Source: Methylophaga nitratireducenticrescens
GTDB lineage: Bacteria; Pseudomonadota; Gammaproteobacteria; Nitrosococcales; Methylophagaceae
Assembly (NCBI RefSeq): GCF_000260985.4
Contig: NC_017857.3
Span: 2,784,924-2,848,923, forward strand
Length of the DNA stretch: 64,000 bases
Direction of reading: 5' to 3'
Shown here: positions 5,878-64,000 of the stretch, one piece after another
Position numbering within the stretch: the stretch's first letter is position 1
Layout of the letters: every line of letters starts with the position of its first letter
The notes under the pieces: model-generated
Databases searched by the model: none
What the model was told of the DNA's origin: nothing
The model's input: the letters and a program-made list of their open reading frames with translations, nothing else
Made by a program: the position numbers and the translations under genes

Positions 5878-8800
5878 TCAATCATCGCCATCATAGGATA
5901 ATGCCGGAGCCAACCAACGTTCAGCATAATCAAGCGTCCAGTTTTTGCGTTTTGCATAATCCTTAACCTGATCTTCACTGATTTTCCCCAGACCAAAATA
6001 ACGTGATTCAGGATGCGCAAAATAGAAACCACTAACTGCCGCTGTTGGCAACATCGCAAAACTTTCGGTTAAGGTCATGCCAATGTGTGTTTCTACATCA
6101 AGCAAATCCCATAACAGACCTTTTTCGGTATGGTCAGGACAGGCAGGATACCCCGGTGCCGGGCGAATACCCTGATATTTTTCGTCTATCAAATCTTCAT
6201 TGGCTAATTGTTCATCTTGTTTATAGCCCCAGAACTCTTTGCGTACCCTTTCGTGCATACGCTCAGCTAAGGCTTCTGCCAGCCGATCAGCCAGCGATTT
6301 AACCATGATACTGTGATAATCATCATGGTCCGCTTCAAAACGTTCAATATGTTCATCAATGCCAATTCCAGCAGTCACAGCAAAGGCACCAAGAAAGTCC
6401 TTCACACCACTGTCTTTGGGCGCCAGAAAATCTGCTAATGCTGCATTAGGTCGGCCTGGGGGTTTCTCGGCTTGTTGACGCAGGGAGTGCAATTTCATTA
6501 AAACCTGCTGACGACTGTCATCGGTGTAAATTTCAATATCATCATCTTCGATACTGTTGGCTGGAAACAGACCAATCACGGCGCGTGCTTTAAGCCATTT
6601 TTCATCGACAATCTGTTTGAGCATTTTTTTCGCATCTTCAAATAGATGCGTAGCATGCTCACCGACAATTTCATCGGTCAAAATACGGGGATATTTACCC
6701 GCTAACTCCCACGATTGGAAAAATGGTGTCCAGTCAATACAATCTACCAACTCCTGCAAGGGGTAATCATCAAATAACTGAATGCCCGGTTGAGCTGGTT
6801 TGACAGGCTGATAAGCCGACCAGTCAATTTTGGTTTTATTCGCACGTGCCTGTTTCAGTGTCAGCAAACGTCGGGTGGATTTACGGCCTTTATGCTGATC
6901 CCGTTTGGTTTGATAATCGGTTTTGATTTTGCCGACAAAATCTTCACGGGTGATTTTACTGACCAGATTCTGTGCCACGCCAACTGCGCGTGATGCATCT
7001 TTTACGTAAATCACCGGGCCATGATAATTCGGATCAATTTTGACTGCGGTATGAATCAGCGAAGTCGTTGCACCGCCAATCATTAACGGAATTTCAAAGC
7101 CCAGACGCTCCATTTCCTTGGCCATGTGTGCCATTTCTTCCAGAGAAGGCGTAATCAATCCAGACAAGCCGATAATATCGACATTGTGCTCACGTGCGGC
7201 ATCCAAAATCTTCTGTGCCGGTACCATCACGCCCAGATCAATGATTTCAAAGTTATTACATTGCAATACCACGCCGACAATATTCTTGCCGATGTCGTGA
7301 ACATCGCCTTTCACCGTCGCCATCAGGATCTTACCGTTACTGCTACTGACCGTGCTATCGTCTTTTTCCAGTTCGATGAACGGCATCAGATAGGCAACGG
7401 CTTTTTTCATTACCCGGGCGGACTTGACCACCTGCGGTAAAAACATTTTGCCTTCACCGAATAAATCGCCGACCACATTCATGCCGTCCATTAACGGCCC
7501 TTCGATGACCTCGAGTGGTTTGGCATATTCATGGCGGGCCAGCTCGGTATCTTCTTCGACAAAATCTGCAATACCTTTGACCAAAGCATATTCCAGCCGT
7601 TTGACCACCGGCAGACTACGCCATTCCAAATCTTCTTTTTTCTCAACGCTGCCATCGCCTTTATACTTATCGGCGATTTCCAGCAAACGGTCGGTGGCAT
7701 CTTTACGGCGGTTTAAGATAACGTCTTCAACCCGCTCACGTAATTCTTCGGGTAAATCGTCATAAATCGCCAGCTGGCCGGCATTGACGATACCCATATC
7801 CATACCGGCTTTGATGGTGTGATACAGAAACACCGCATGGATGGCTTCACGCACCGGATTGTTACCCCGGAACGAAAACGACACATTGGATACGCCGCCA
7901 CTGATCATCGCATGTGGCAGGCTTTGCTTGATATCACGGGTGGCTTCAATAAAATCGACGGCATAATTATTATGCTCATCAATGCCGGTGGCTACGGCAA
8001 AAATATTCGGATCAAAAATGATATCTTCGGCCGGAAAATGCACTTTTTCGGTGAGGATCTCATAACTGCGGGTACAGATTTCGCGTTTACGTTCACGGGT
8101 GTCAGCCTGACCATCTTCATCAAATGCCATGACGATAACGGCTGCTCCATAACACCGTACCAGTTTGGCCTGTTCAATAAATTTGGCTTCGCCCTCTTTC
8201 AAACTTATTGAGTTAACAATGCCTTTGCCCTGAATACATTTGAGGCCAGCTTCAATGATTTCCCATTTGGAGGAGTCAATCATAATCGGCACACGACTGA
8301 TATCAGGCTCTGCAGCAACCAGATTGAGGAAAGTCACCATCGCATCCTGCGAGTCGAGCATGCCTTCATCCATATTGATATCGATGATTTGCGCGCCATT
8401 TTCGACCTGCTGTCTGGCGACCTCTAAAGCTGTATCGTAATCACCTTCCTTGATCAGTTTGGCGAAGCGGATTGAACCGGTCACATTGGTGCGCTCACCG
8501 ATATTCACAAACAGACTTTCCGGTGTGATGGTAAGAGGTTCCAGACCACTGAGACGGCAATAATGTTTGTTTTCAACACGCTGGCGTGGTTTAACACCTT
8601 CGACAGCTTCGGCAATGGCTTTGATATGTGCCGGTGTGGTGCCACAGCAACCACCGATAATATTCAGGAAACCGGCTTCAGCCCATTCTTTTATATGAAT
8701 CGCCATCGCTTCAGGTGATTCATCATATTCACCAAATTCATTGGGCAAGCCGGCATTAGGGTGAGCACTGACATAACTGGTGGAAATATTCGACAGTTCT

Positions 8801-51453: not shown

Positions 51454-52065
51454 TTAAGCCAGTAAGTCCGCTAACAAGGTGCTGTAATTTGACTGTTGTA
51501 CGGCGAGTTTGTGCCGACTGGCGACCACAATCGCAGTCAGGCTGGCGAGTGCATGATCAAAGTCATCATTCACAATCAGATAATCAAATTCAACATAATG
51601 TGACATTTCACTCTCTGCATCACGCATTCTGCGCGAAATTGTTGCTTCATCATCCTGCCCGCGGCCTCTCAAACGCTGCTCAAGTGCTTGTTTAGAGGGT
51701 GGCAATATAAAAATACTGCTGCTGTCGGGAAAGTTTTTTCTGACCTGTTGAGCACCCTGCCAGTCAATTTCCAGAATCACGTCATTGCCGGCATGTAACT
51801 GGTGATGCACCGCTGCTGCTGAAGTACCATAACTGTTATCAAATACAGTTGCGGATTCCAGAAACTCTCCTGCATCACGCATCTTGCTGAAGATGTCCTG
51901 ACTGACAAAAAAGTAATCTTTGCCATCAGCCTCCCCCGCTCTGGCGGTCCTCGTTGTATGGGAAACCGATAATCGAACATGCGGATCCTGCTTGACCAGT
52001 GCCCGAACCAGACTGGTTTTCCCCGCACCGGAGGGTGCCGCTACAATAAATAAACTTCCAGACAT
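51454..52065 (-). CDS. gmk: Guanylate kinase
   Basis: Phosphorylates GMP to GDP. The 203-residue protein has the P-loop [13 protein letters not shown] near residue 8 and the GMP-binding [13 protein letters not shown] and DYFFVS segments. It is the first gene of the minus-strand operon; AAGG precedes the ATG, and the promoter must be in the 239-base gap before the divergent iron transporter genes. Confidence 0.97.
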
Positions 52066-57513: not shown

Positions 57514-59904
57514 TCAGGAGAGGTTGGCTTCGAGCTGCAATGTGGTCAGGTTGTCATTATCGTTACCAACATATTGGAGGGTGTAGCCCATCGCCTTGTA
57601 GCTTTTTTCTCGTTTCTTAAACATGCGTTGCAGCATAGGAAGTGCGCAGTCCACATAGTCGTGAATTGTCACTTGTGTCTTCCCTTCCGCTTCTCGGTGG
57701 ATCCGACCTGCGTATTGAGCCAAAGTACCTTTCCAGGCGATTGGCATAGCTAAAAACAATGTGTCCAGCCTTGGAAGATCAAATCCCTCTCCCACATACT
57801 TACCTGTTGCGACCACTATTTGAGCGGATTGCAGGTGCTTGTCGGCATATTTACGTTCAGCTGCTTTCATTGCACCTTTCAAAACGATTGAGTTAATACC
57901 CATGTCGCCAAGTTGTGTGTGGATGTTTTCGGCGTGATCTCTCCTTTCCGTTAGAATTAACGGGTGTCCGCCATTGTGAACACACTGGATGGCGTCTGAG
58001 ATAATCTTTGACGTGCGGCATTCATTATCGACAAGCCAACGATAGGCATCAGTCACTTTTGGACGTTCATCTGTTTTAACTAACTCGTGAGGCGGTGCAT
58101 CGTAGAACTGATTGATGATGACTGTCTGAGTAAACTGTTCGTCAGTGCTGCTTTTCACTTTGTAGCGAATTGGCCCGGCTGCCATAAAAATGATTTTTTG
58201 ATGCCCATCTTGCCTTTCGGGTGTCGCTGTTAGACCCAATACATATTTTGCTCTTACTTCGTTGAGCACCATTTCAAACCTTGGAGCGGATAGGTGATGG
58301 CATTCATCGACGATGATATGACCGTAGTCTTGTATTAAGTGTGAAATTGAGTTGTCCTTTTTATTGACCAAGCTTTGGTAAGTAGCAATATCGATAACGC
58401 CACTCGGTTTTCTTTTACCACCACCTACACTGCCAATGTTCACATCTGGCAAGAATGTGCGTAATCGCTCGTGCCATTGCTCAAGCAGTTGGCGGCTATG
58501 AACAAGGATCAGCGTGTTTACTTTTCGTTTTGCGATCATGCCGATGGCAGTAACTGTTTTTCCAAATGCCGTTGGTGCATGCAATATGCCGAAGTCATGC
58601 TTACTCATAGCTGCTACCGCTTCACGCTGGTTTTTTCGCAACGTGAAGGTAGGAGCAAGTTTGATTAATGGTTTGCCTGCTTCGCGCTTATCGTCAAATT
58701 GCACAGAGATATTGTGCTCTTGTAACAAAGCAATCGCTTCATCGAGACAGCCTCGCGATAGTGCTAAATAACCGTTTTCAATGCGTGCACAAGAAATAAA
58801 TCTTGGAATGCCATGAGTGGAAAAGCGTAACGCTTGCGTTTTAAAAAACACAGGATTCGAAAAGCTGGCCAATCGCTTTAGTCCTGCCAGCAGCGGCCCA
58901 GGTAACTCACTCATCAAAAAATAGATGTGGTTCGCCAGGGTGATGGTAATGCTTTTCGGCAGGCGCTCTAACTTAATTGGGGGGCTTTTTGCAGTGATTT
59001 CCCATGGAGGACGGTTGTCTGCGAGCCCCTGTTCTGACAATAAATGAGTATTTGGTGAAATTGCCGCGATGAGCTCTTCAACACTTGGTTGAGTAAGCGT
59101 TTTAAGCTGTGAGAGATACAGCCATTGATCGTCAATGGCATTTAACTCGCTATCAACAAAACAACTACGGCCTGAAAGCCGAGCCTCTTTTTGAAGTGGT
59201 AAAGCTATGAGGTTGCCAAATCCGCCCTCAGAAAGAAAGTCTTGGTTCGGAAATAACCTGTCATAAGAGTCAAACGAAAGATTTGGAAATATCTCCATCG
59301 CTTTATCAAGTAGCACAACCCCGAGTACCCGTGCTTGGTTGGCAGGGATATTCGTTTCAAAGAATATCCATAAGTGCGCTCCGTTACCTGAGCGCGAGAT
59401 TTCTATGGCATGAGGAATGCCGAATTCTTGGCATGCTCTGGACATCGCTTTGACTTCTTCTTGCCAACAACCTTTGTCAAAATCGGCAGCCAACAAATAA
59501 CAAGTATTGTCTTTCAATAACGGATAAAGCCCTACGACTTGATGACCGGCAAGATGGCGATAAATAATCTGTTCGCTTAATTCACTGAATTGCCGATGCG
59601 TACACTCCTGAAACTTTATTCGGGGCTTGTTGCATACTCCAGCGATCCACTCGTTGTCACAGGCAACGGAATAGCCACTGCGTCCCTGTTGGTTCTGCCA
59701 ACGGTTGGCAAAGATATCCTCTCGTCCGCGGAATCGTTGTCTGAAGATGGCAATTTTTTGTTCTGGGGTAAATGTCTGTATCGGACGATCGCTTTGAGCG
59801 TTAAGCAAAGAGTTTCTTAATGCGAGAAGCTGTTGCTTTTCGTTTTCAAGCTCAGCTAGCCTGTTATCAATAGCAGATACATCTTGGTAGCGAGCGCCAT
59901 TCAT
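57514..59904 (-). CDS. Fused AEP primase and superfamily 2 helicase (TOTE-type)
   Basis: A 796-residue protein. After a coiled coil (residues about 8-35) comes an archaeo-eukaryotic primase-type domain with the AADFDKG metal motif (DFD at 141-143) and RSGNGAHLWIFFE (histidine 177), as in domains annotated in TOTE conflict systems. The second half is a superfamily 2 helicase with Walker A PTAFGKT (near 445), DECH (near 529) and motifs V-VI (GEGFDLPRLDTLFLAMP, QYAGRIHREAEGK). These primase-helicases are thought to act against foreign DNA or to move with mobile elements; function here is inference. A broken higA-like gene lies 25 bases upstream on the same strand. Confidence 0.8.
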   Translation of the reverse strand: MNGARYQDVSAIDNRLAELENEKQQLLALRNSLLNAQSDRPIQTFTPEQKIAIFRQRFRGREDIFANRWQNQQGRSGYSVACDNEWIAGVCNKPRIKFQECTHRQFSELSEQIIYRHLAGHQVVGLYPLLKDNTCYLLAADFDKGCWQEEVKAMSRACQEFGIPHAIEISRSGNGAHLWIFFETNIPANQARVLGVVLLDKAMEIFPNLSFDSYDRLFPNQDFLSEGGFGNLIALPLQKEARLSGRSCFVDSELNAIDDQWLYLSQLKTLTQPSVEELIAAISPNTHLLSEQGLADNRPPWEITAKSPPIKLERLPKSITITLANHIYFLMSELPGPLLAGLKRLASFSNPVFFKTQALRFSTHGIPRFISCARIENGYLALSRGCLDEAIALLQEHNISVQFDDKREAGKPLIKLAPTFTLRKNQREAVAAMSKHDFGILHAPTAFGKTVTAIGMIAKRKVNTLILVHSRQLLEQWHERLRTFLPDVNIGSVGGGKRKPSGVIDIATYQSLVNKKDNSISHLIQDYGHIIVDECHHLSAPRFEMVLNEVRAKYVLGLTATPERQDGHQKIIFMAAGPIRYKVKSSTDEQFTQTVIINQFYDAPPHELVKTDERPKVTDAYRWLVDNECRTSKIISDAIQCVHNGGHPLILTERRDHAENIHTQLGDMGINSIVLKGAMKAAERKYADKHLQSAQIVVATGKYVGEGFDLPRLDTLFLAMPIAWKGTLAQYAGRIHREAEGKTQVTIHDYVDCALPMLQRMFKKREKSYKAMGYTLQYVGNDNDNLTTLQLEANLS

Positions 59905-59929: not shown

Positions 59930-60291
59930 TTATGAAGCATGAACTTGCGGCGGCTTGATCAGAGACTCAGCTGGAATGCCTAATCCTTCATACAGTCTCC
60001 AAATCATTTTGAGCGTGAGTAAACGCTTATGATTAAGGATTTCATAAACACGATTGCTTTTACCAAAAAAAGTTCAAGGTCTTTCACGGTTAAGCCCTTT
60101 CGCTCCATTTCGAATTTTATTGCTTCAACCGGATCTGGTAGATCCAATGGAAAATGTTTTGCCTCGTAGGCTCCAATCAATATAACCAGAATATCCAGCT
60201 TTTCCCTTTCAACGGCATCTGGTTCTGCCATCATCAGGTTTTCAATTCTTTGACAGGTTAAAAATCTATTCGACGTTTTGAATTTGCTCAT
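59930..60291 (-). pseudogene. HigA-type antitoxin remnant (frameshifted)
   Basis: The first 75 or so residues read as a COG5499 HigA-type antitoxin (LDLPDPVEAIKFEMERKGLT). A run of seven A on the plus strand (60065-60071), T7 in the gene, then breaks the frame. With one more T the frame continues with GKSNRVYEILNHKRLLTLKM and ends IPAESLIKPPQVHAS, the normal helix-turn-helix and tail. No HigB toxin was found upstream. The primase-helicase gene follows after 25 bases. A slippage event could restore some product; otherwise it is decayed. Confidence 0.75.
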
Positions 60292-60597: not shown

Positions 60598-60889
60598 ATG
60601 AATTTTACCTTACTTGATGATACCGATGTGAGCCAAGCTTATGCTGCCTATTTGCGTGAGTTACGCCAACGCGCAAAAACTGTCACGAGCGGCATTGGCA
60701 GTGCGAAGCTGCATACCTGCGGCCACCATTAAGAAGTTTGAGCTGACTGGGCAAATTTCATTTCGCCAATTGCTGTTGCTTTGGCAGACTCTCGACTCAT
60801 TGGATAGGCTTTATCAGCTCACACAACCTAACAAAGTGTGCGTCACTATGCCTACTAGCATTAATGAGATGCTAAAAGATGAGTTTTAA
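60598..60889 (+). pseudogene. HipB-type antitoxin (frameshifted)
   Basis: A small HTH antitoxin gene for the following hipA. The ATG at 60598 starts MNFTLLDDTDVSQAYAAYLR; the frame then breaks at a run of five A (60675-60679). With one A fewer it continues as KLSRAALAVRSCIPAATIKK and FRQLLLLWQTLDSLDRLYQL, which is the second part of the HTH and the tail. Its stop overlaps the hipA ATG (ATGAGTTTTAA). A single-base insertion is the simplest reading. Confidence 0.75.
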
Positions 60890-62218
60890 ACCTATTCAAA
60901 AACTCACCGTAACCCGCACGTTAAGCTCAGGTGAGCAGGTAACTGTAGGGGGCTTGGCTCAGAATCGGCAAGGCGTTTTTTTCAGTATGCCAACAGCTAT
61001 TTGCAGCAGTTTGGCAATGTATCGCCTTTTACTTTGCAAGCCAATACGCAAAAGTACAAGCCGCACCTAAACAACCGCACCAGGGTGTACATGGTGTATT
61101 TGGAGATTGTTTGCCCGATGGCTGGGGGATGCTGTTACAAGATCGTATTTTCCGGCAAAAAGGCATTCTGCCTAATCAATTAACGACGACGGATCGACTG
61201 GCCTTTGTCGGTGATAAAAGCATGGGAGCGCTGTCTTTTTCTCCGGTGTCTGAGTTTTCGGCCGCGACGCACGCTGACATTGATTTAGCAATCTTGGGCT
61301 TAGCAGCGCAAACGCTGTTCGATGCTTCAATGTCAGATTATATAGACGACAACCACGATGAGTTAGATAGGCATACTCAACAGGTGTTGGCGGCATTAGT
61401 CGCCGGTGGTAGTTCGGGTGGGGCAAGGCCCAAGGCGCAGATTTATATGCCTACTGGGGAAACTCAGCATTGTCGAACCTTTGCTCAGCCTGGAGATGAG
61501 GCTTGGCTGATTAAGTTTACTTCTAAAAATCTAGCGCTCGGGCATGCAGAAGGTTTGTGTGAGGCCGTCTATTTGCAAATGGCTGGGCAAGCCAAGTGCC
61601 AACCGCCGATCTGGCAACTTATTGAAGCGCCTCATACAATCGGCGCGTGTGCTTGGTTGGCGCTCAAGCGTTTTGATTATGTCGCTGAACATACCGATTT
61701 AGTCAGTCAGCGCAGTTCAGGTCGGTTGCATATGCACAGTGCCTGCGGGCTTTTGGATGCAGACTTTCGAACGCCAAGTTTAGACTATATTGACTTGATC
61801 AAAACCAGCCGACAGCCGTGTAAATCTCCAGCTGCTGGGCAATTGCAATTTCGCCGTGCCATTTTTAACCTGCTGTCGTCTAACCAAGACGATCACAGTA
61901 AAAACTGGGCGTTTTTGCAAGCGGACGATGGTCAATGTCAGCCCTCGCCTTTTTACGATGTCACCTATAGCCCACATCCATTTAACGAACATGCCACTGC
62001 CTTTGGCGGTTATGGTAAAGCTCCGCCAATTAAGGTGATACAAAAACTTGCTGCAAGTGCAGGTTATGGGAGTTGACATGATGCAAGGCAAATCATTGAA
62101 GAAGTCGCAGAAGCACTCAGCCAATTTACTTATCTCGCACTGCAACAAGGGATCAGTAATTGCTAAGATACTGGAACAGCGCAAGCAGGAAAATGCAGCG
62201 CTTTTTCTACAACAATAA
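60879..62218 (+). pseudogene. HipA-type toxin kinase (several lesions)
   Basis: HipA kinases phosphorylate glutamyl-tRNA synthetase and cause dormancy. The full gene can be followed in three frames: the N-terminal part MSFKPIQKLTVTRT breaks at T7 (60976-60982); a middle piece QYANSYLQQFGNVSPFTLQA breaks at A4 (61050-61053); the main part VHGVFGDCLPDGWGMLLQDR continues with the kinase residues SNQDDHSKNWAFL and FYDVTYSPHPF. A TGA at 62074-62076 then stops where family members have Trp-His-Asp (SWHDARQ). A further shift near 62150 separates the last SVIAKILEQRKQENAALF. Four independent lesions argue for a dead gene. Confidence 0.85.
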
Positions 62219-62230
62219 GAAGGGACGACA

Positions 62231-63235
62231 ATGAAGCTCGGCCGAAACGATCCTTGCCATTGTGGCAGCGGTAAAAAATTTAAACGTTGTTGTATGAGCA
62301 GCGTCTCCAAGCAACATGCCCAAGTCTTTGATGATGTTGAAGCCACGCTGGCAATGAACCCAAATTTGAGCCTTGATGAACTCAACGCAGCCTTACAGCA
62401 CAAAGTTCAGGATCGCAATAATCAACCTCATCCCGATTTTTGTGGTGTGACACCAACGCAAATGGCCAATTGGCTTTATGCGCCTTTTGCTGAATTACAG
62501 TGGGTGACAATCAGCACACCATATGAGCTATTGGTCAGCCCTGTGATGCGTTATCTAGCACTCATCCTTGATGAGGCCATGGCGCAAGAAGGCTCCTTCA
62601 AAGCCACGAGTAAAGGCAACTTACCGGCTAAGTTGGTCAAACAGGCCAGTGAGTTATTGCCTGAGTTTGCCGTTGCTCAATTCGAAAGTAACATAAGTAT
62701 CAGTGAGTTTGCGGGCAGTAACGAAGACAAATTTAATGCCTTGCACTACACCAGAGTGCTAGCCGAAATTAGTGGCATTATTTATCGACGTAGCGGCCGC
62801 TACCATGTGAAAAAATCAGCACAAAAACAGTATCAGGCGTTAGGTATACAGGCATTTTTCAAGCCTATGTTGGAGGCCGCAATCAGCAAATATAACTGGG
62901 GCTATTTGGACGGTTTTGAATACGATATCGACTTGCGACCCTTTTGGCTGTTTATGCTGTGGCGCATTCAGAGCCACAACCGTGTGGAACAGCTCGTTGA
63001 AGAGGTGATGACGGCTTTCCCCGATTTACTTCAGTCCTTCCCAACGGATGATTACTTCACGCCGGAAAGTAACTTAAGCATGTTAATTGAATCACGGTTT
63101 ATTGAACGTTTTTTACAGTTTTGGGGATTTGTGACCATTGACGCAAGACGTTATTTAAACGCTGACCCCATCGCCAGAGTGATTCAGGTACAGCCTTTGT
63201 TAAAACAAACTTTTCAATTCACCATTAACGCATAA
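62231..63235 (+). CDS. SEC-C domain protein, 334 aa
   Basis: The protein starts with a SEC-C zinc motif, MKLGRNDPCHCGSGKKFKRC followed by one more cysteine (C9, C11, C20, C21). The following about 310 residues have no recognised fold; they are mostly helical, with LSPVMRYLALILDEAM-like and FWLFMLWRIQSHNRVEQL segments. SEC-C motifs elsewhere bind zinc and ribosomes, or join nuclease and other domains in conflict systems. GAAGGG precedes the ATG. The next gene starts 10 bases later in the same direction, so the two likely form a pair. Confidence 0.7.
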   Translation: MKLGRNDPCHCGSGKKFKRCCMSSVSKQHAQVFDDVEATLAMNPNLSLDELNAALQHKVQDRNNQPHPDFCGVTPTQMANWLYAPFAELQWVTISTPYELLVSPVMRYLALILDEAMAQEGSFKATSKGNLPAKLVKQASELLPEFAVAQFESNISISEFAGSNEDKFNALHYTRVLAEISGIIYRRSGRYHVKKSAQKQYQALGIQAFFKPMLEAAISKYNWGYLDGFEYDIDLRPFWLFMLWRIQSHNRVEQLVEEVMTAFPDLLQSFPTDDYFTPESNLSMLIESRFIERFLQFWGFVTIDARRYLNADPIARVIQVQPLLKQTFQFTINA

Positions 63236-63245
63236 AAAGGTCATC

Positions 63246-64000
63246 GTGAGCGAATATCAATACTATAAATTCGAGCGTTTGGATGGGTATTTAGATGCTA
63301 AAGCGCGCCAAGCACTCAGAACCATTTCAAGCCGTGCTGAGATCAGCGCTACGTCCTTTCAGGTATATTACACCTACAGTGACCTAAAGGCAGAGCCTTT
63401 TGAGCTGATGTTAAAATACTTCGATATCGGTTTTTACTATGCCGATTGGGGCTCAATCGATGCTTACATCAAGCTACCAGTGGGAACTCTTCCTGATGCG
63501 TTAGTTGGTTTTTCAAGTGATGGGCTTCATGTACACGAAAACGATGAGTGGCAGTTGCTGATTTTTTCCCTTGAGGAGTATTACGAATATTTTGACGATG
63601 AACATGCTGACGACTTTTTCCAGCATTTAGCCAGTTTACGCAGCGAGTTAATCCAAGGGAGTTGGCGTCTTGTGTACTTTATGTGGCTCAAAGCGTTTGA
63701 TTTTAATGACGAAGTTGATCGAGTGCCGTTGATTCAATTCGAGTTTGAGCACCTTAGTGAAGAGTTGCAGGCCTTTGCAGCGCTGTATGATATTCCTTTA
63801 GCATTGGTTAAGGCACTCGCCATGGTGCTGAACGAACAACCAAGTCACCAAGCCAAACAAGCCCAGTTTCAGTTTGATGCGTGGCTCCATAATCTCTCGG
63901 AAGCAGAGAAAGACATGCTATTACGCACGCTGTTTGAACAAGGCCAGCTAACCCGTCACCAAGCCTTAGCGATGACTCGAAAAGATTCTGCCAACAAAGA
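63246..64000 (+). CDS. Unrecognised protein, 3' end outside window
   Basis: A GTG start with AAGG 5 bases upstream begins a frame that remains open through 251 codons to the window edge. The visible part (SEYQYYKFERLDGYLDAKAR, FFQHLASLRSELIQGSWRLV) has no family I recognise. It is acidic and rich in aromatic residues, with SSRAEISATSFQVYYTYSDL and FDIGFYYADWGSIDAYIKLP as notable segments. It follows the SEC-C gene by 10 bases and probably works with it. What the rest of the protein holds cannot be seen. Confidence 0.7.
   Translation, partial: MSEYQYYKFERLDGYLDAKARQALRTISSRAEISATSFQVYYTYSDLKAEPFELMLKYFDIGFYYADWGSIDAYIKLPVGTLPDALVGFSSDGLHVHENDEWQLLIFSLEEYYEYFDDEHADDFFQHLASLRSELIQGSWRLVYFMWLKAFDFNDEVDRVPLIQFEFEHLSEELQAFAALYDIPLALVKALAMVLNEQPSHQAKQAQFQFDAWLHNLSEAEKDMLLRTLFEQGQLTRHQALAMTRKDSANK

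Follow-up and report, generated by a model that had tools for sequence, protein, structure and literature searches.

Genes A and B, near the right end of a 64,000-nucleotide (nt) stretch of the Methylophaga nitratireducenticrescens genome (NC_017857.3, positions 2,784,924 to 2,848,923, forward strand; the whole stretch is called the window here), are in our reading the distal accessory genes of a mobile hipB-hipA-A-B block, which is found with a convergent AAA_14/DUF4143 ATPase gene in an island flanked by gmk and yicC and can lose either gene separately. We put the probability of this reading, taken jointly with the mechanism proposed below, at about 0.55. An earlier reading made from the letters of the window alone (the sequence-only reading) had described a SEC-C protein of 334 residues lying 10 bases before an open frame of at least 251 codons, and had proposed the two as a candidate for an undescribed two-gene defence or conflict system. 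The comparison with relatives turns this pair into a putative four-gene toxin-antitoxin operon with natural losses of single genes, and draws attention to two protein families, neither of them named, that accompany conflict genes.

Genes A and B and their block in relatives

Gene A (62231 to 63235, forward strand) starts with ATG and encodes 334 amino acids, with the N-terminal sequence CHCGSGKKFKRCC. The SEC-C motif at its N terminus scored 34.6 bits against the Pfam cut-off of 20.4, which places A among the SEC-C proteins, and for the body outside the motif Pfam gave no match up to E 1. Gene B (63246 to 64000 in the window, forward strand) starts with GTG 10 nt past the stop of A and runs for 251 codons to the window edge. 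When the chromosome was read beyond the window, B was complete with 372 amino acids and ended at window coordinate 64364. No family matched B above a curated cut-off: the best Pfam entry was DUF2664 (21.3 bits against 22), and NCBIfam, PADLOC and PHROGs gave nothing up to E 1. Among relatives sharing 80 to 91% of residues, the ratio of nonsynonymous to synonymous substitution rates (dN/dS) was 0.06 to 0.14 for A (10 pairs whose dS was finite, G696 at 83 to 85% among them) and 0.14 to 0.19 for B (3 pairs). These low values indicate that both proteins are maintained by purifying selection. The coordinates, the Pfam match and the dN/dS values thus agree with the two genes as first described, including the lack of a recognised family for B and its truncation by the window edge.

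Directly upstream of A in the window are a hipB remnant (60598 to 60886, forward strand), which matches the Acinetobacter helix-turn-helix (HTH) gene in two frames with pieces at 83 to 93%, and a hipA remnant (60879 to 62209, forward strand), which consists of four pieces in three frames at 83 to 95% to Acinetobacter HipA and retains a HipA_C match of 116.8 bits. In Acinetobacter the order on the plasmid is hipB, hipA, A, B and the convergent AAA ATPase gene, with a primase-helicase gene and higBA farther away. The gaps between hipA, A and B in the copy L006 are 18 and 10 nt, and the HTH gene overlaps the HipA gene. The block is also intact in the chromosome of genome G688, with gaps of 12 and 10 nt. 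Adjacent hipB (HTH) and hipA genes are present in Acinetobacter, Escherichia coli E14 and G688, so that the block has the gene content of a HipBA module. The window matched Acinetobacter over 5507 bp at 88% in the part from hipB to the ATPase gene and over 2810 bp at 80% in the part with the primase-helicase gene and higA, the relative order of the two parts being changed. The block was found at 99% or more in nine Acinetobacter plasmid records. The order of A and B and their 10-nt spacing are common to three lineages, namely the window, Acinetobacter and G688.

The 10-nt spacing, the shared strand, the joint presence in three lineages and the conflict-island setting would all suit A and B as an undescribed system of two genes, serving defence or acting as toxin and antidote. 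However, each gene has been lost with the other kept. Gene B was found in four of 5426 E. coli genomes, with the block at the same site without A. The order in E. coli E14 is dinD, hipB, hipA, B, the ATPase gene, a DUF927 gene, a type I restriction cluster, a primase-helicase gene of the TOTE type (for TPR, OB, TBP and Effector conflict systems, as an excerpt of PMC12458937 gives the name), higA, higB, an integrase gene, yicC and rph. Compared with Acinetobacter, 979 bp are gone at the position of A, the final bases of A remain before an intact B, and nothing else resembling A was found in the 46-kb E14 stretch. Conversely, genome G634 keeps hipB, a piece of hipA and A, and has B as remnants only. 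On the Acinetobacter plasmids, B is intact in L201 and L006, carries an internal stop in L199 and is out of frame in L200; the remaining five plasmid records have a "hypothetical protein" annotation under the B match. These cases show that either gene can disappear while the other stays. A toxin B that depended on A for its restraint would be fatal once A was gone. The separate losses argue that A and B are accessory cargo, and we consider a new two-gene defence system very improbable. The idea of an indivisible, recurrent A-B pair accordingly fails; three lineages share the pair, and of 274 genomes sampled across the class only the window genome has both genes.

Neighbours of families A and B

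Thirty-three A loci were read (the weak matches L168 to L170 were excluded, and G714 and a second piece in G757 fell outside the set), and a gene was counted as directly beside A if it lay on the same strand within 200 nt. By this measure hipA or its remnant is beside A in six loci (L005, L006, L134, L151, L153 and L156) and a HipA_2-like kinase gene in L162. Other loci have a HEPN/PIN gene (L126), a RES gene (L135), a type IV-like restriction gene at 2 nt (L152), a type I HsdR gene at 129 nt (L157), a Fic gene (L154 and L167) or an AAA_14 gene (L030, L131 and L132). A conflict-type gene of these classes thus directly adjoins A in 16 of the 33 loci, and type I HsdR genes lie one or two genes farther away in L159 and L161. 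Some A loci, such as L127, L129 and L133, resemble ordinary chromosome.

We then compared A loci with control stretches, using as a panel 23 proteins of toxin-antitoxin, restriction and island types taken from A and B loci, with the entries of a locus removed for that locus. A panel match was found in 16 of 24 A loci and in 1 of 20 controls, which came from 18 genomes with A loci at positions picked by hand (Fisher p 2.8e-5). Omitted from the 33 were L005, L006, L030 and L043, which belong to the window island or came to light through B, and the short L131, L132, L133, L165 and L167. The conflict-island setting proposed by the sequence-only reading was therefore upheld, and its self-contained two-gene system gave way to hipB-hipA-A-B as the unit. 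The result also bears on the view that A helps in protein export or quality control, has no conflict role and hitch-hikes on the island. The SEC-C motif, found in SecA, YecA and YchJ according to an excerpt of PMC8076867, speaks for such a helper, but the conflict-gene neighbourhood exceeds the control and the spread of A is patchy (9 of 274 genomes in the class sample, 5 of 398 in the phylum sample, 21 of 147 in the G634 family and 1 of 75 relatives of the window genome). We regard this as the least probable of the explanations weighed here.

The neighbours of A also shift among its close relatives: at 84% identity the neighbour is a type IV restriction gene, at 68% a Fic gene and at 64% a type I restriction gene. 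In a phylogeny of 31 A proteins, made without the fragments L136 and L165, the 12 neighbour labels take 15 changes with a minimum of 11, and the hipBA label takes 2. The RES-associated protein of L135 sits on a very long branch, which makes its membership in family A unsure. Such turnover would be expected if A and B were independent single-gene cargo, chance neighbours in one island lineage with unrelated jobs, the true partner of B being the primase-helicase and that of A being whatever module it last landed behind. The 10-nt spacing and the order of A and B, kept in three lineages despite diverged synonymous sites, speak against chance neighbours; we treat independent cargo as possible and lean against it.

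In six of the 33 A loci (L030, L043, L130, L131, L132 and L167), a gene for a TPR-like protein of 417 amino acids lies 6 nt downstream of A, and in those six it is a more regular partner of A than B is.

Family B is widespread: the scan of species genomes gave at least 539 relatives of B, and the best 80 of these were studied, with no correction for relatedness. A TOTE-like match was present in the flank of B in 22 of 81 loci (the best 80 of at least 539 and one viral contig), one match covering 26 residues. With directly beside B meaning the same strand within 150 nt, a TOTE-type gene adjoined B in 14 of 93 listed loci (5 before B and 9 after), a TPR gene in 12, reduced to a short remnant in 7, and an AAA_14 gene in 3. 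Gene A was beside B in 2 of the 93, the window and its Acinetobacter copy, and G688, found later, made a third; this difference between A and the TOTE-type gene favours the independent-cargo view. Gene A also lies within 6 kb of B, non-adjacent, in L030 and L043, which represent two related lineages. A toxin-antitoxin or conflict-island setting was seen in 23 of the 50 listed B loci of at least 12 kb, a count without a matched control. The TOTE domain itself occurs in 26 of 274 class genomes, and in the gammaproteobacterial sample B is near a TOTE gene only in the window genome; G136 has both, far apart.

In either order, B stands beside a TOTE-type primase-helicase gene in L032, L033, L038, L040, L042, L056, L058, L068, L069, L073, L084 and others, and the two may form a real two-gene module. 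A TPR-type protein of 275 to 411 amino acids is encoded 0 to 3 nt after B in L065, L066, L071, L086 and L101, and a protein of about 120 to 180 amino acids directly upstream of B in L010, L034 and L036 forms a family of its own. The B gene of L014 was cut at 6900 in alignment A1. SEC-C proteins encoded beside B in L053, L082, L094 and L108 were considered as members of family A and rejected, their motif being C-terminal; those of L082, L094 and L108 match A over the motif only. In these three Mesorhizobium loci the gene is divergently upstream of B, near a gene that we take to be RecQ.

Proposed roles and known systems

In the proposed mechanism, HipA would be a kinase toxin held by HipB, and HipB would repress the operon. 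A and B would be translated from the hipBA message, and their levels would climb when HipB drops. Judged from its motif, A may dock via SEC-C on SecB-like chaperones or on the translation apparatus and act as an adaptor, a role that would fit the way A is attached to toxins and restriction enzymes of unrelated chemistry. An excerpt of PMC8076867 states that the metal-binding domain of SecA binds SecB and that unreviewed work reports an interaction of YecA with SecB. B may be a long-helix scaffold working alongside nucleic-acid machines, a role suggested by how often B neighbours primase-helicases. Shared expression from the hipBA promoter, the adaptor and the scaffold, taken together, are unlikely to be right as specified; the operon order, the conservation, the separate losses and the island setting were observed in the genomes, and their probability is far higher.

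Several points weigh against the accessory-gene reading. The window has broken copies of hipB and hipA but intact A and B, which there would be leftovers or would act alone. HipBA is missing next to many A genes, and in 17 of the 33 A loci no toxin-antitoxin, restriction, Fic or AAA_14 gene directly adjoins A; since A is kept without hipBA, it does not need HipBA. Repression of the operon by HipB and co-transcription of A and B enter the model as general background and assumption. The adaptor role was drawn from the SEC-C motif because the structure model of A is poor (mean predicted local distance difference test score, pLDDT, 43.0; predicted template modelling score, pTM, 0.31; alignment of three sequences). 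Because B leaves the window, the structure of a Sedimenticola homologue, 31% identical to the window part of B, was predicted in its place (pLDDT 90.1, pTM 0.78). The N-terminal part of the model is alpha/beta, and the rest comprises helices, with a long one at residues 270 to 311, and a helical tail; the model found no clear fold match (Foldseek best E 0.015 in the PDB and 0.037 in BFVD). The best VIA-align score was Z 5.2, for ACT-like aspartokinase domains over residues 2 to 68, and the list also holds helical proteins over the tail; matches at this level may reflect no more than a widely shared arrangement. When PDB sequences were searched with profiles, the best E was 0.023 for A and 0.017 for B, and neither match was used. 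Profile and structure checks, suggested with the sequence-only reading, therefore placed A by its SEC-C motif and gave B no family and its homologue no clear fold match.

A broader version, which we hold to be rather unlikely, makes family A an accessory, so far undescribed, that several conflict modules share: one SEC-C protein handed around among effectors of unrelated chemistry (HipA kinases, restriction enzymes, Fic and AAA_14) and helping them through one host partner such as SecB or the ribosome, with family B as an unnamed primase-helicase partner recruited to the operon. Should A indeed serve many effectors, the machinery of protein export and chaperones would thereby be connected with bacterial immunity. 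If A is not a shared accessory, the pair is a reminder that a 10-nt spacing alone makes no system.

The textbook hipBA module has two genes. The block resembles it in that overlapping HTH and HipA genes immediately precede A and B, both in Acinetobacter and in G688, and in the HipA_C match of the window remnant; it differs in that A and B follow in the same direction and that the window hipB and hipA are broken. A shares SEC-C, above the Pfam cut-off, with the SecA tail, YecA and YchJ, whereas the rest of A is unlike any Pfam family in the search described above. The island primase-helicase has an AEP-TOTE domain, a feature shared with the TOTE systems, and some B relatives adjoin such a gene or a TPR gene, whereas A and B carry no TOTE domain. 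The ATPase convergent to B matched the PADLOC entry PDC-S01 at 401.7 bits; this is a candidate label only, and the ATPase is a neighbour, neither A nor B.

Occurrence and the gmk-yicC island

Family A had 17 matches below E 1e-60 among the 21 in the G634 family of 147 genomes, where B occurred in 5. G688 belongs to this family, as does G789, in which a weak match to A and a copy of B lie on separate contigs. In the class sample of 274 genomes, B was present in 5, and one of these copies contains three stops. The absence of A from all other members of the 75 relatives indicates that the block arrived late in the window genome. No tblastn match for A or B was found in 50,697 phage records, and viral contigs gave none for A and one relative for B, so that a phage-borne origin of the genes was rejected. 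Literature searches turned up nothing on A or B, and we make no claim beyond those searches.

The accessory region of the window, described earlier as an island with toxin-antitoxin remains and a primase-helicase, was confirmed by the hipB, hipA and HigA remnants and the AEP-TOTE match. The HigA antitoxin remnant (59936 to 60246, reverse strand) matches Acinetobacter HigA in two frames at 76 to 83%, and no HigB match was found. The TOTE-type primase-helicase of 796 amino acids (57514 to 59904, reverse strand; AEP-TOTE PF22548, 322.5 bits; 85% to the Acinetobacter protein) is an island neighbour outside the hipBA block. While hipB, hipA and higA are broken, A, B, the ATPase gene and the primase-helicase gene are open. 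The left border is gmk (51454 to 52065, reverse strand; 55% to annotated E. coli gmk), and yicC (52% to the annotated gene) and rph (68%) lie right of the window. Broken open reading frames, presumably of insertion-sequence-type transposases, adjoin yicC at the right end (L005, 4318 to 5081).

The stretch from gmk to yicC/rph is a repeated island home, occupied in the window (51454 to 52065 through L005 5475 to 7170), in E. coli E14 (L198, 1 to 25924) and in seven genomes of one other family (L134, L151 to L154, L156 and L160). In E14 the type I restriction cluster between the ATPase and primase-helicase genes (L198, 8208 to 17570) includes one gene annotated mads1. Within the fetched stretches, yicC, rph or gmk was present in 8 of the 33 A loci and in 0 of the 20 controls.
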